A stretch of DNA of 38,928 bases from the NCBI GenBank assembly GCA_021774625.1, contig JAJFIV010000022.1:1-38928 (forward strand). Reading direction: 5' to 3'. The DNA is from Alphaproteobacteria bacterium. Its GTDB lineage: Bacteria; Pseudomonadota; Alphaproteobacteria; Sphingomonadales; JAKSBY01. Of the stretch, positions 18,658-22,099 are shown piece by piece. A model generated the notes under the pieces. It saw only the letters and a list, made by a program, of their open reading frames with translations. It made no database searches and was not told the origin of the DNA. The position numbers and the translations under genes were made by a program. Position 1 is the first letter of the stretch. Every line of letters begins with the position of its first letter.

Positions 18658-19308
18658 ATGAAAATTTCCGTCCCCATTATCCGGCGCTATCTGAAGCCTG
18701 CGGTCTTTCTGGCCCTGAGCTGGCCGCTTGCCTGGCTCGTCTGGCAATGGGGACAGTTTATTCACGGCCAGCCCAACGGCCTCGGTTTCAATCCACAGGA
18801 ATTCACCAACCGCTATACCGGCGACTGGGCGCTGCGCTATATTCTTGGCGGCCTTGCCATCACGCCGCTGGCCAGACTGACCCACACCCCGACCCTGGTC
18901 CATTTTCGCCGCATGGCGGGACTGTTTGCCTTCGCTTACGCCTCCGTCCACCTGACATCCTATATTGCCCTTGACCAGATTTTTAACTGGACGGAAATCT
19001 GGAACGATATTCTCAAACGGACCTTCATCACCCTCGGTATGACGGCTTTCACCCTCCTGATCCCCCTGGCGGTCACTTCGACCAACAAGATGGTAAAACG
19101 GGTTGGCGCAAAACGCTGGCTATGGATTCACAGAATGATCTACCCCATCAGTATTCTGGTCCTGATTCATTTTATTATGATGCGCAAAGGCACCCAGCTT
19201 GAGCCGCTGGTTTACGGGGCCATACTGACGGTGCTCTTAAGTTACCGGCTGGCCGTATATTTCAAGAAAAAAGCCGGGTTCCGAAGAACCCGGCATAAGT
19301 CGACATAG
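18658..19308 (+). CDS. msrQ: MsrQ, heme-binding membrane subunit partnering MsrP
   Basis: The protein has 216 residues with about six hydrophobic helices and a ferric-reductase-like core. The conserved histidines that hold b-type heme lie in FAYASVHLTSY (about 98-108), in KRWLWIHRMIYPISILVLIH and nearby. It takes electrons from quinols and hands them across the membrane to MsrP. The final residues FRRTRHKST are coded by the hairpin that, on the other strand, forms a strong terminator. The gene end and the minus-strand transcript therefore overlap tail to tail. Confidence 0.93.
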   Translation: MKISVPIIRRYLKPAVFLALSWPLAWLVWQWGQFIHGQPNGLGFNPQEFTNRYTGDWALRYILGGLAITPLARLTHTPTLVHFRRMAGLFAFAYASVHLTSYIALDQIFNWTEIWNDILKRTFITLGMTAFTLLIPLAVTSTNKMVKRVGAKRWLWIHRMIYPISILVLIHFIMMRKGTQLEPLVYGAILTVLLSYRLAVYFKKKAGFRRTRHKST

Positions 19309-19431
19309 GGAGGTTTCATGCGTTTCAGACAGTCCTGAAACCAACATGGAGTCCGAAACTGGGAGGATCGGACTCAAGCCGGCGCTACTCGGGGGAGGAG
19401 GATTGCGCCAGCGTGATGCTCTCAAGCATCA
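19266..19431 (-). ncRNA. Putative small RNA with anti-Shine-Dalgarno loops (cuckoo/ar14-like)
   Basis: Read on the minus strand, the region folds as five consecutive hairpins. (1) 7 pairs with a TGAG loop (19414-19431). (2) 8 pairs with one G-U (19405-19412 with 19378-19385); the 19-base loop contains CCTCCTCCCCC. (3) 8 perfect pairs GAGTCCGA/TCGGACTC (19349-19375) with loop TCCTCCCAGTT. (4) 7 pairs GTTTCAG/CTGAAAC (19322-19341). (5) The terminator. Two loops showing CUCCUCCC-type sequence followed by a terminator is the pattern of the cuckoo/ar14/CcsR-type RNAs known from alphaproteobacteria. Their loops are complementary to Shine-Dalgarno sequences and regulate translation. A promoter-like sequence stands at the right distance. 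It could instead be the 3' UTR of the LysR gene. Family membership is inferred. Confidence 0.65.
19267..19294 (-). terminator. Strong rho-independent terminator with UUCG loop
   Basis: On the minus strand GCCGGGTTC-TTCG-GAACCCGGC forms nine perfect pairs capped by the stable UUCG tetraloop and followed directly by six T residues. It ends the putative small RNA (or the LysR transcript) and lies within the last codons of msrQ on the other strand. Confidence 0.88.
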
Positions 19432-19436
19432 TGTGT

Positions 19437-19465
19437 TATTTAGGAACTGGCCAAAGGCTTAACAA
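19437..19465 (-). promoter_or_regulatory. Candidate promoter of the small RNA
   Basis: On the minus strand TTGTTA (19460-19465) and TAAATA (19437-19442) are separated by exactly 17 bases. The expected start, about seven bases on, falls at the base of the first hairpin. The -10 box is a weak match, so confidence is limited. Confidence 0.35.
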
Positions 19466-19530
19466 CCCCCGATCACTCATAGGAGATATGCATAAAACGC
19501 ATGGCTCCACAAATTTGCCATAATAATTAA

Positions 19531-20424
19531 TCAGAACAGGTCCGCCGCCCGGGTCACCTGATTAACCAGATAATCGCGGAATTCACCCACCCGTTTCGAG
19601 CCCCGTAATTCACGCGGGTAGACGAAATAGGTTTTGAACTGCGGCACATCCACATCGGTCAGAACCCGCACCAGATCGGATTCTTTGCCGATAATATAGT
19701 CCGGCAGAACCGCAAGGCCCATCCCGGCATCAACCGCCTTAAAAACAGCAAACAGATTATTGACCTGAAAGGAAGGGCGGCGGGGAGGACCTCTGCGCCC
19801 CGCTGACAGGATCCAGTTGATATCCTTGATCGACATCGGCACTGTTGGTCCATAGGTAATGATATCATGGGGATCAAGATCGGAAAGCGTTGCCGGGGTG
19901 CCGCGCTTGTTCAGATATTGCGGCGATCCGTAGATATGGTAATTGACCGTCACCAGCGGTTTTTGGATATAATCGGCCTGATCAGGCGGGTGAAACCAGA
20001 TGGCGACATCCGCCTCGCGGGTCGCAAGATCGATGTCAGCATCCGACAGCACAAGCTGCAGATCGATTTCAGGGAAATTCCTGACGAAATTTTTGACCCG
20101 GGGCGTCAGCCAGTAGGATCCGAAACTGACGGTGGTTGTGACCCGCAACAATCCGCTTGGCCGCTCCTTTGATTCCAGAAGTTCGCGCTCGACCGCTTCA
20201 ACTTTATCGATAACCTCGCGGCTTGTCTCGAACAGCTGCTCACCCTCATTGGTCAGCACCAGCCCGCGGGCATGGCGGTTAAACAGACTGACATTCAGGC
20301 TTTCCTCCAGCCCGCGGATCTGACGGCTGACAGCCGACTGGCTGACCGCAAGCCGTTTGGCGGCAAGGGTAAAGCTGCCCGCTTCGGCAACCGTATGAAA
20401 AATGCGAAGCTTGTCCCAATCCAT
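19531..20424 (-). CDS. LysR-family transcriptional regulator
   Basis: The protein has 297 residues. The N-terminal winged helix-turn-helix (about residues 3-62) reads KLRIFHTVAEAGSFTLAAKR, then LAVSQSAVSRQIRGLEESLN. A linker helix and a periplasmic-binding-like effector domain (about 90-295) follow. LysR proteins bind a small molecule or sense oxidation and usually control a divergent or nearby gene. There is no divergent neighbour; the gene sits 28 bases downstream of thioredoxin reductase on the same strand, so it is probably the last gene of that unit. The effector is unknown. Confidence 0.9.
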   Translation of the reverse strand: MDWDKLRIFHTVAEAGSFTLAAKRLAVSQSAVSRQIRGLEESLNVSLFNRHARGLVLTNEGEQLFETSREVIDKVEAVERELLESKERPSGLLRVTTTVSFGSYWLTPRVKNFVRNFPEIDLQLVLSDADIDLATREADVAIWFHPPDQADYIQKPLVTVNYHIYGSPQYLNKRGTPATLSDLDPHDIITYGPTVPMSIKDINWILSAGRRGPPRRPSFQVNNLFAVFKAVDAGMGLAVLPDYIIGKESDLVRVLTDVDVPQFKTYFVYPRELRGSKRVGEFRDYLVNQVTRAADLF

Positions 20425-20452: not shown

Positions 20453-21418
20453 TTATTCGGCGGCGTCGGCCCGCGCTTCCTCCTCGGCCAGAAATTTTTC
20501 CGCCTCCAGGGCCGCCATGCAGCCCATCCCGGCAGCCGTCACTGCCTGGCGGTAAATTTTATCCTTCACATCCCCGGCGGCATAGACCCCCGGAATATCC
20601 GTCGCCGTGGAATCCGGCGCCGTTATAATATAGCCTTCCGGGTCCATCCTGATCTTGCCCTTGAAAAGCCCGGTCGCCGGACTGTGCCCAATGGCGATAA
20701 AGACACCATGAACAGGGATATCCTGTGTCGTGCCTGTCTTGACATTCTTGACGCGGACGGCGGTCACACCCTTGGGTTCCTCATCGCCGAGAATTTCATC
20801 CAGCACATGGTCCCAAAGCACAGTGATCTTCTTGTTTTTGAACAGCCGGTCCTGAAGAATTTTTTCCGCCCGCAGTGAATCCCGGCGGTGGATCAGGGTT
20901 ACTTTGCTGGCGAAATTGGTCAGGAACAGCGCTTCCTCCACCGCCGTATTGCCGCCGCCGATGACCGCCACTTCCTTTTCCCGGTAGAAAAATCCGTCGC
21001 AGGTGGCGCAGGCGGAAACGCCAAAACCCTGAAATTTCTCCTCCGACGGCAGGCCCAGCCAACGCGCCTGGGCGCCGGTACTGATCACCACCGTATCCCC
21101 GGTATAGGTCCGGCCCGATTCACCAACCGCCCGGAAGGGCCGGGTTGAAAAATCCACTTTTGCGATATGGTCGTTGACGATTTCCGTGCCCACATGCTCG
21201 GCCTGAGCCTTCATCTGCTCCATCAGCCACGGACCCTGGATGGTTTCCGCAAAGCCGGGATAATTTTCCACATCCGTGGTGATAGTGAGCTGACCGCCGG
21301 GCTGCATCCCTTCGACCACCAGAGGATTGAGCGCGGCGCGCGCTGCATAAACAGCCGCCGTATAGCCGGCCGGCCCCGATCCGATGATCAGCACATTGCT
21401 GTGAAGGGTTTCAGACAT
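20453..21418 (-). CDS. trxB: Thioredoxin-disulfide reductase
   Basis: The protein has 321 residues and is a cytoplasmic flavoenzyme that reduces thioredoxin with NADPH. The FAD-binding GSGPAGYTAA lies near residues 13-22, the redox pair is CATC at residues 137-140, and the NADPH site VIGGGNTAVEEA follows at about 152. A C-terminal FAD motif GVYAAGDVKD completes the family pattern. The peroxiredoxin gene lies 78 bases upstream on the same strand, a natural pairing because thioredoxin recycles such peroxiredoxins. Confidence 0.96.
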   Translation of the reverse strand: MSETLHSNVLIIGSGPAGYTAAVYAARAALNPLVVEGMQPGGQLTITTDVENYPGFAETIQGPWLMEQMKAQAEHVGTEIVNDHIAKVDFSTRPFRAVGESGRTYTGDTVVISTGAQARWLGLPSEEKFQGFGVSACATCDGFFYREKEVAVIGGGNTAVEEALFLTNFASKVTLIHRRDSLRAEKILQDRLFKNKKITVLWDHVLDEILGDEEPKGVTAVRVKNVKTGTTQDIPVHGVFIAIGHSPATGLFKGKIRMDPEGYIITAPDSTATDIPGVYAAGDVKDKIYRQAVTAAGMGCMAALEAEKFLAEEEARADAAE

Positions 21419-21496: not shown

Positions 21497-22099
21497 TTAA
21501 AGATCCTCGGCATTTTCCGCCAGATAGCTGGCAACGCCCTCGGCCGTCGGCTTCATGCCACTTTTGCCCTTCTGCCAACCGGCCGGGCAAACCTCGCCAT
21601 GTTCTTCATGAAACTGCAGCGCCTCGATCATGCGGATGGCTTCATCCACATTGCGGCCCAGAGGCAGGTCATTGACAACCTGATGGCGGACGACGCCATT
21701 GGTATCGATCAGAAACGTACCGCGCAGCGCCACCGAATCATCAATAAGCACGTCATAATCCCGGGCGATGGATTTGGTGATATCCGCCACAAGTGGAAAA
21801 TCAACCTCACCCAAACCGCCTTTTTCAACCGGCGTATTGCGCCAGGCAAAATGGGAAAACTGACTGTCGACACTGACTGCAACCACCTGGGTGTTCAATT
21901 CCTTGAACCGGTCGATCCGGTTATGGAAGGCAATAATTTCCGACGGGCAGACAAAGGTGAAATCCAGCGGGTAGAAAAACACCAGGCCGAATTTTCCGCT
22001 GATCGCCTCGGAAAGTTTAAAATCCTCAACAATGGAATTATCGGGCAGCACAGCGGCCGCAGTGAAATCGGGGGCGGGTTTGCCAACAAGAACGCTCAT
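21497..22099 (-). CDS. Typical 2-Cys peroxiredoxin (AhpC/Prx1 type)
   Basis: The protein has 200 residues. It reduces hydrogen peroxide and organic peroxides in the cytoplasm. The peroxidatic Cys51 lies in FYPLDFTFVCPSEIIAFH and the resolving Cys171 in GEVCPAGWQKG, the arrangement of decameric Prx1-like enzymes. The C-terminal tail (ASYLAENAEDL) is present. Reduction by thioredoxin is likely because trxB follows in the same direction. AGGAGA precedes the start. Confidence 0.95.
   Translation of the reverse strand: MSVLVGKPAPDFTAAAVLPDNSIVEDFKLSEAISGKFGLVFFYPLDFTFVCPSEIIAFHNRIDRFKELNTQVVAVSVDSQFSHFAWRNTPVEKGGLGEVDFPLVADITKSIARDYDVLIDDSVALRGTFLIDTNGVVRHQVVNDLPLGRNVDEAIRMIEALQFHEEHGEVCPAGWQKGKSGMKPTAEGVASYLAENAEDL

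Follow-up and report, generated by a model that had tools for sequence, protein, structure and literature searches.

A probable LsrB-controlled anti-Shine-Dalgarno small RNA, positional counterpart of AbcR, downstream of trxB-lysR in an alphaproteobacterium

Introduction

Work on the LsrB/VtlR-AbcR circuit in rhizobia, Agrobacterium and Brucella has treated it as a regulator of host interaction and metabolism; its AbcR RNAs repress ABC-transporter mRNAs. The anti-Shine-Dalgarno (aSD) loops of AbcR act on ribosome-binding sites (PMC8844928, PMC5461406). The gene order trxB-lsrB/vtlR is well conserved in the class (PMC7486931). For LsrB/VtlR, the consensus GCAT-N3-TG-N3-T has been demonstrated or put forward in Brucella, Agrobacterium and Sinorhizobium (PMC7486931, PMC8844928), and at the S. 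meliloti promoter PabcR1 the published LsrB box lies at -61 to -49 (PMC8844928).

Several other alphaproteobacterial RNAs carry CCUCC-type sites. The cuckoo/ar14 (RF02344)/CcsR1-4 RNAs are built as successive hairpins whose loops carry CCUCC and whose stems vary. In alpha-R8 (MmgR/SisA-D, RF00519), an unpaired core containing CCUCCCU precedes the terminator; the SisA core reportedly exerts repression through base-pairing upstream of the start codon. The alpha-R8 core, UUUCCUCCCU, acts on ribosome-binding sites in Caulobacter, the FGase neighbourhood is the usual place of these genes, and the Caulobacter siblings have no common upstream motif (PMC12559287). SorX (RF02784) and SorY (RF02651) of Rhodobacter sphaeroides end in CCUCCCU..ACUU and a terminator, and SorX is processed by RNase E from the end of an ompR-type mRNA (PMC9438474). 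The literature that we surveyed, largely papers available without subscription, contained no description of LsrB-linked sRNAs outside Rhizobiales; such a regulator-RNA pair appears to be known so far only from rhizobia and their kin. Here we describe a locus with features of several of these systems.

Results

A row of hairpins with three anti-Shine-Dalgarno sites

In the window, by which we mean the whole 38,928-nucleotide stretch analysed, the minus strand from 19431 to 19266 forms five consecutive hairpins, the last of which is a terminator (Table 1). Both sequence and folding bear out the initial annotation of this row, with its nine-pair UUCG terminator and six T. The minimum free energy (MFE) is -69.9 kcal/mol, compared with -45.6 ± 3.8 kcal/mol in 200 dinucleotide shuffles (z = -6.4; no shuffle was as low). 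The terminator sits within the final codons of msrQ (18658-19308, plus strand), as had been noted. Very probably, this is a real sRNA gene and a separate gene of its own.

Table 1 Features of the predicted sRNA locus and its surroundings
Feature	Coordinates	Strand	Basis
Predicted sRNA, ~166 nt	19266-19431	-	Fold z -6.4; relatives alike in length (median 162 nt) and architecture
Hairpin 1, 5' end, GATGCT-TGAG-AGCATC	19415-19430	-	Fold; relatives with matching 5' hairpin GATGTTG..AACATC
Hairpin 2, loop CCUCCUCCCCC (19401-19391)	19378-19413	-	Fold; counterpart in relatives
Hairpin 3, loop AUCCUCCCAG (19368-19359), contains TCCTCCC/UCCUCCC	19349-19375	-	Fold; counterpart in relatives
Hairpin 4, GUUUCAG-GACUGU-CUGAAAC	19322-19341	-	Fold; GUUUCAU..AUGAAAC in relatives
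Linker seed CCUCCCU, unpaired, between hairpin 4 and terminator	19307-19313	-	Fold; invariant in 53 relatives
Intrinsic terminator, 9 pairs (hairpin 19294-19273), UUCG loop, six T (19272-19267)	19267-19294	-	Terminator call; pairs changed on both sides in 7/8
Palindrome ATGCGTTTTATGCAT	19488-19502	-	Single ATGCN7GCAT copy in window
Putative LsrB/VtlR box GCATATCTCCTAT	19491-19479	-	One mismatch to GCAT-N3-TG-N3-T
Possible -35, TTGTTA, weak	19460-19465	-	Read from sequence; 16-17 nt before -10
Possible -10, CTAAAT	19438-19443	-	48 nt after GCAT of box
LysR-type regulator, LsrB/VtlR-like	19531-20424	-	PDB 9HH1 match; Pfam PF00126, PF03466
trxB, thioredoxin reductase	20453-21418	-	TIGR01292, 421.6 bits, above cut-off
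msrQ, tail to tail with RNA, neighbour not conserved	18658-19308	+	NF003831, 141 bits, above cut-off

CCUCC sites occur at three places in the RNA, namely the loop of hairpin 2, that of hairpin 3 and the linker preceding the terminator. Both loop sites had been annotated as open. The sites are indeed present, the first within the letters CCTCCTCCCCC (19401-19391), but in the MFE structure weak inner pairing of 2-3 bp leaves both loops only partly open, and the unpaired probability in loop 2 is ~0.2 for three bases. The linker site, which the annotation had missed, is the best exposed of all, with an unpaired probability of 0.97 or more. It is also the only block invariant across 53 relatives, which were chosen partly by that motif. 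Across the window RNA and its relatives (62 RNAs), CUCC occurs 3.3 times per RNA compared with 1.05 in shuffles, and fully unpaired CUCC ~1.7 times compared with 0.3. Sequence supports the prediction of an aSD sRNA of ~165 nt that would bind the ribosome-binding sites of mRNAs. Searching for ribosome-binding sites of strong complementarity by the target pattern GGGGAGGA-N3-10-ATG returned five sites and no clear target set; three had frames of at least 40 amino acids, one of them, judged by eye, encoding an outer-membrane efflux-type protein.

The architecture is conserved and the stems covary

A BLAST search of 149 genomes of the order, with the RNA as sole query, recovered a common block, GACGCATGAAACCTCCCTAT..GACTT plus the terminator, in several families. 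This search made no use of the LysR gene and independently located the RNA, in other families of the order too, at the slot downstream of LysR. Four matches (L007, L008, L022 and L024) had the terminator alone in common and were dismissed. Whole RNAs of the order share one order of parts: a 5' hairpin GATGTTG..AACATC, then one or two with CUCC in the loop, a GUUUCAU..AUGAAAC hairpin, the CCUCCCU linker and the terminator. RNAs of this type, when cut 61 nt from the GCAT of the upstream box, have a median length of 162 nt. The counterpart of hairpin 2 has a CUCC or CU-rich loop and a partly compensated stem, that of hairpin 3 a CCUCCCC loop and compensated stem pairs; the UCUCCC loop of hairpin 4, frequent in relatives, is lost in the window RNA.

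Within two groups of close relatives, double-sided changes preserve pairing at 9 and 6 pairs, respectively, with the CCUCC loops unchanged. The pairs concerned belong to hairpins 2 and 3; the first group adds pairs of the terminator. We also built a covariance model, R1, of the 3' module (terminator and 3' hairpin) from 53 sequences. Pairing was kept through changes on both sides in 13 of its 14 pairs, with a covariation score of 0.370 compared with 0.167 when shuffled and 0.12 or less when slid. The stems and CUCC loops, which the initial annotation expected relatives to keep if the RNA is real, are thus retained together with architecture and length.

The RNA often follows an LsrB-like regulator gene across the class

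The RNA lies directly downstream of trxB-lsrB/vtlR, the AbcR position, 100 nt past the stop codon of the LysR gene. R1 matched 56 of 149 genomes of the order (E <= 0.1) and 131 of 289 genomes of the class (E <= 0.001). Among the 51 order matches of at least 40 bits, 41 follow LysR on its own strand, for the most part at 180-250 nt, and 10 lie elsewhere. Among the 141 class matches listed (at least 42 bits), at least 95 lie within 6.5 kb downstream of LysR and at least 81 within 600 nt. These shares are biased upward because about two-thirds of the R1 training sequences were found through LysR (the order-level ones by RNA sequence alone). At LysR-homologue loci across the class, a similar RNA follows the gene in Kiloniella, Sneathiella, Minwuia, Kordiimonas, Oceanibacterium and others. 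That many alphaproteobacteria have an RNA of this type behind this regulator gene suggests that regulator and RNA form an old pair.

No R1 match lay within 2.5 kb of the gene in 35 of the 78 LysR-bearing genomes of the order. Ten of these loci were inspected by eye: six (L145, L146, L148, L149, L150 and L158) have CCUCC/aSD hairpin arrays, several of them behind a palindrome of the kind described below, and the other four have no aSD hairpin array near LysR. In L149 and L150 the arrays are closely followed by a tRNA gene and are without the CCUCCCU module; that of L150 scores 37.5 bits to ar14. Behind LysR in L146, at about 450-500, pyrimidines run on for an unusual length (CTCCTCCTCCCCTCCCTCCCCTCCCCCC) in what looks like a hairpin loop. 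Sneathiella and a related metagenome-assembled genome (L035, L050 and L072) have two or three tandem RNA copies behind LysR, the first two with boxes of their own.

Among solved structures, LsrB of A. tumefaciens (PDB 9HH1) is the closest to the window LysR protein, at 305 bits compared with 121 for the next LysR. Its sequence contains no cysteine, and 70 of 108 LysR homologues have none either. Only two alignment columns hold five or more cysteines; they correspond to V140 and V268 of the window protein and, judging from their positions, are presumably the conserved C144 and C273 of LsrB. The redox switch described for LsrB (PMC11975290) therefore cannot work in the same way here. A link to thiol stress, raised in the initial annotation, is doubtful by way of this regulator: the nearby trxB and peroxiredoxin genes hint at redox, whereas the absent cysteines speak against a direct thiol sensor. 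The peroxiredoxin gene, of AhpC/TSA type, lies upstream of trxB in the same direction (21497-22099, minus strand).

Comparison with AbcR

AbcR1/AbcR2 (alpha-r15; Sinorhizobium, Agrobacterium, Brucella) and the window RNA have in common the slot behind trxB-lsrB, aSD loops, a box (putative, in the window) of LsrB type at a matching distance from the -10, and a stand-alone terminator. They differ in size and build, ~165 nt and five hairpins compared with 114-120 nt in AbcR, and by eye their bodies have no evident sequence similarity. The AbcR linker is UUCCCCUC (aSD2); the linker of the window RNA has CCUCCCU and contains no aSD2/M2 motif (UUCCCCUC or GUUCCC). The AbcR linker motif CUGUUCCCCU turns up in the slot behind LysR at hyphomicrobial loci (Kaistia, Roseibium, Pseudovibrio, Methylopila and others), in most cases after CCUCC or CUCCC, and some of these loci have a strict LsrB box upstream. 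At one of them, L060, the only one in which the distance was counted, a CATATA -10 lies 49 nt after GCAT (by eye). AbcR and RNAs of the window type thus share this slot and, in part at least, their type of promoter.

Comparison with other anti-Shine-Dalgarno RNA families

The window RNA could also be an ordinary member of cuckoo/ar14/CcsR or of alpha-R8 (mmgR/SisA), with no category of its own needed. Its hairpin loops with CCUCCUCCC are those of cuckoo RNAs, and its CCUCCCU linker and terminator are like those of alpha-R8, SorX and SorY. No Rfam family scored above gathering in the window, however; the sub-threshold scores were 22.7 of 111 for SorY, 20.3 of 58.8 for ar14 and 19.8 of 41 for suhB/mmgR, and SorX (gathering 46.6) was not among the window matches at E up to 1. 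The initial annotation had matched the layout to cuckoo/ar14/CcsR, an assignment that these scores do not sustain. The 3' module and promoter differ from those of that group, and no DUF1127 gene was found among the neighbours (msrQ, lysR and trxB), with small ORFs covered in part.

The 10-nt core of alpha-R8 is not in the window RNA, which has GAAACCUCCCU at this point with the CCUCCCU part in common, and an extra array of hairpins lies 5' of it. Moreover, the genome has an alpha-R8/mmgR RNA of its own beside an FGase gene, above gathering at 46.6 bits (G000:C32:170100-170180). Most of the window group have an upstream box in common, in contrast to the Caulobacter alpha-R8 siblings (PMC12559287). 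With every such model below gathering, we regard ordinary membership as doubtful. The tests made assign the window RNA to none of AbcR, alpha-R8 and SorX, though by analogy it probably works as they do, through a CCUCC seed.

Two further candidates lie elsewhere in this genome. The second R1 match (L142, G000:C32:106944-107012) was rejected as a different, SorX/BjrC1505-like RNA; it is of CCUCCCU type, scores 36-38 bits, below gathering, and lies between MscS-like and Hsp20-like ORFs (named by eye). Near a contig end, G000:C17:18076-18162 (L143) has a CCTCCTCCTC stretch and is a possible aSD RNA, with 30 bits to SorY, below gathering.

A putative LsrB/VtlR box at a fixed distance from the -10

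Between LysR and the RNA lies a palindrome whose right half overlaps the LsrB/VtlR consensus. About 1.3 such palindromes are expected by chance per window, so that one is not rare in 39 kb; its position, not its mere presence, is what counts. Upstream of these RNAs ATGC-N6/7-GCAT occurs in 64 of 76, compared with 4.4% of background windows, frequently in the form AGCTATGCN7GCATRGCTGC. Of these 76 RNAs, 36 have the strict box and 67 either the box or the palindrome; in these counts the window's own row matched hairpin 1, and the true window box was placed separately. From GCAT to a CTATAT-like -10 the distance is 47-49 nt in 39 of the 48 relatives with a clear -10, a peak somewhat sharpened by a search that broke ties towards 49. 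This is the spacing of S. meliloti PabcR1. In the window, GCAT at 19491 and a CTAAAT -10 at 19443, 48 nt on, predict a start near 19431, the 5' end given in the initial annotation. The AbcR box position (-61 to -49) fits; the sequence has no match to the strict consensus and is one mismatch off.

The RNA might instead derive from a 3'UTR, released by RNase E from trxB-lysR read-through without a promoter of its own. Just 100 nt separate it from the LysR stop codon, and a generic promoter scan called no promoter, the possible -35 included. SorX is made in this way (PMC9438474), and its Rfam model, which gives the best sub-threshold match in many relatives, mostly stays below threshold there; the third tandem copy in L035 (Sneathiella) exceeds the SorX gathering score. 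Against such an origin stand the putative promoter that sets the window RNA apart from SorX, the palindromic box at a fixed distance from the -10 between LysR and RNA, and the tandem copies, mostly with their own boxes. Several copies detached from LysR keep the box as well (L154-L157, L167, L181 and L184), while some of the detached copies inspected are without one. A 3'UTR origin is, in our judgement, unlikely.

msrQ is not a constant neighbour

The initial annotation had linked the RNA to msrQ. Another reading would make it a cis element, serving as the lysR terminator and as an antisense RNA that trims or silences the msrQ end: at its 3' end, 40-odd nt run antisense to msrQ codons, and the terminator would also stop lysR read-through. 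But the neighbour on this side changes among relatives (names by eye), with msrQ in only a few close ones (L003, L004 and L006), proC in L005 and L012, and a HAD-type gene in L010, L014, L015 and L020, while RNA and LysR stay together; in L009 the RNA adjoins proC on a contig other than that of the LysR match. The variation leaves the msrQ link unsupported. The constant and telling neighbour is the upstream LysR gene, and since the overlap also fits tight tail-to-tail packing, a cis element seems very improbable. Chance hairpins in a gap between two genes, with no functional RNA, are very unlikely in view of the fold (z = -6.4), the covariation, and the synteny and sequence block conserved across the class.

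Discussion

The window RNA is probably an LsrB-controlled anti-Shine-Dalgarno sRNA that corresponds to AbcR in position and resembles cuckoo RNAs in its hairpins and alpha-R8/SorX in its 3' end. We consider it likely that it is a stand-alone gene downstream of trxB-lysR, activated by the LysR protein and aided by Hfq, whose RNA blocks translation at ribosome-binding sites. The LsrB/VtlR-type protein would bind the putative palindromic box (19502-19479), which probably serves as its site, and so switch on transcription from about 19431. The resulting RNA would offer its CCUCC sites in two hairpin loops and the unpaired linker. Together with Hfq, it would then base-pair with ribosome-binding sites rich in purines and keep a set of mRNAs from being translated, a mode of action for which rhizobial AbcR1/2 may serve as the model. 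The several sites of the RNA may differ in the targets they serve, like aSD1 and aSD2 of AbcR. Structure, conservation, synteny and box position come directly from computation, as does the presence of hfq, which this genome encodes; from work on AbcR, alpha-R8 and SorX we infer activation by LysR, Hfq binding and repression of translation.

An LsrB-type LysR and a multi-site aSD RNA may form an ancestral alphaproteobacterial pair, of which rhizobial LsrB-AbcR would be one derived branch and whose ancestral signal would not be thiol oxidation, since most of these LysR proteins, that of the window included, are without cysteine. We hold the case for this proposal as a whole to be evenly balanced. 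The lack of cysteine in most sampled LsrB homologues would limit the redox-sensor model to part of the family. The window RNA joins features of families that have been held separate, the loops of cuckoo and the linker of alpha-R8/SorX, and so bears on the kinship of aSD RNAs. If the pair is class-wide, its basic role would be older than host association, and many alphaproteobacteria without a studied sRNA would gain a testable regulator, promoter box and RNA.
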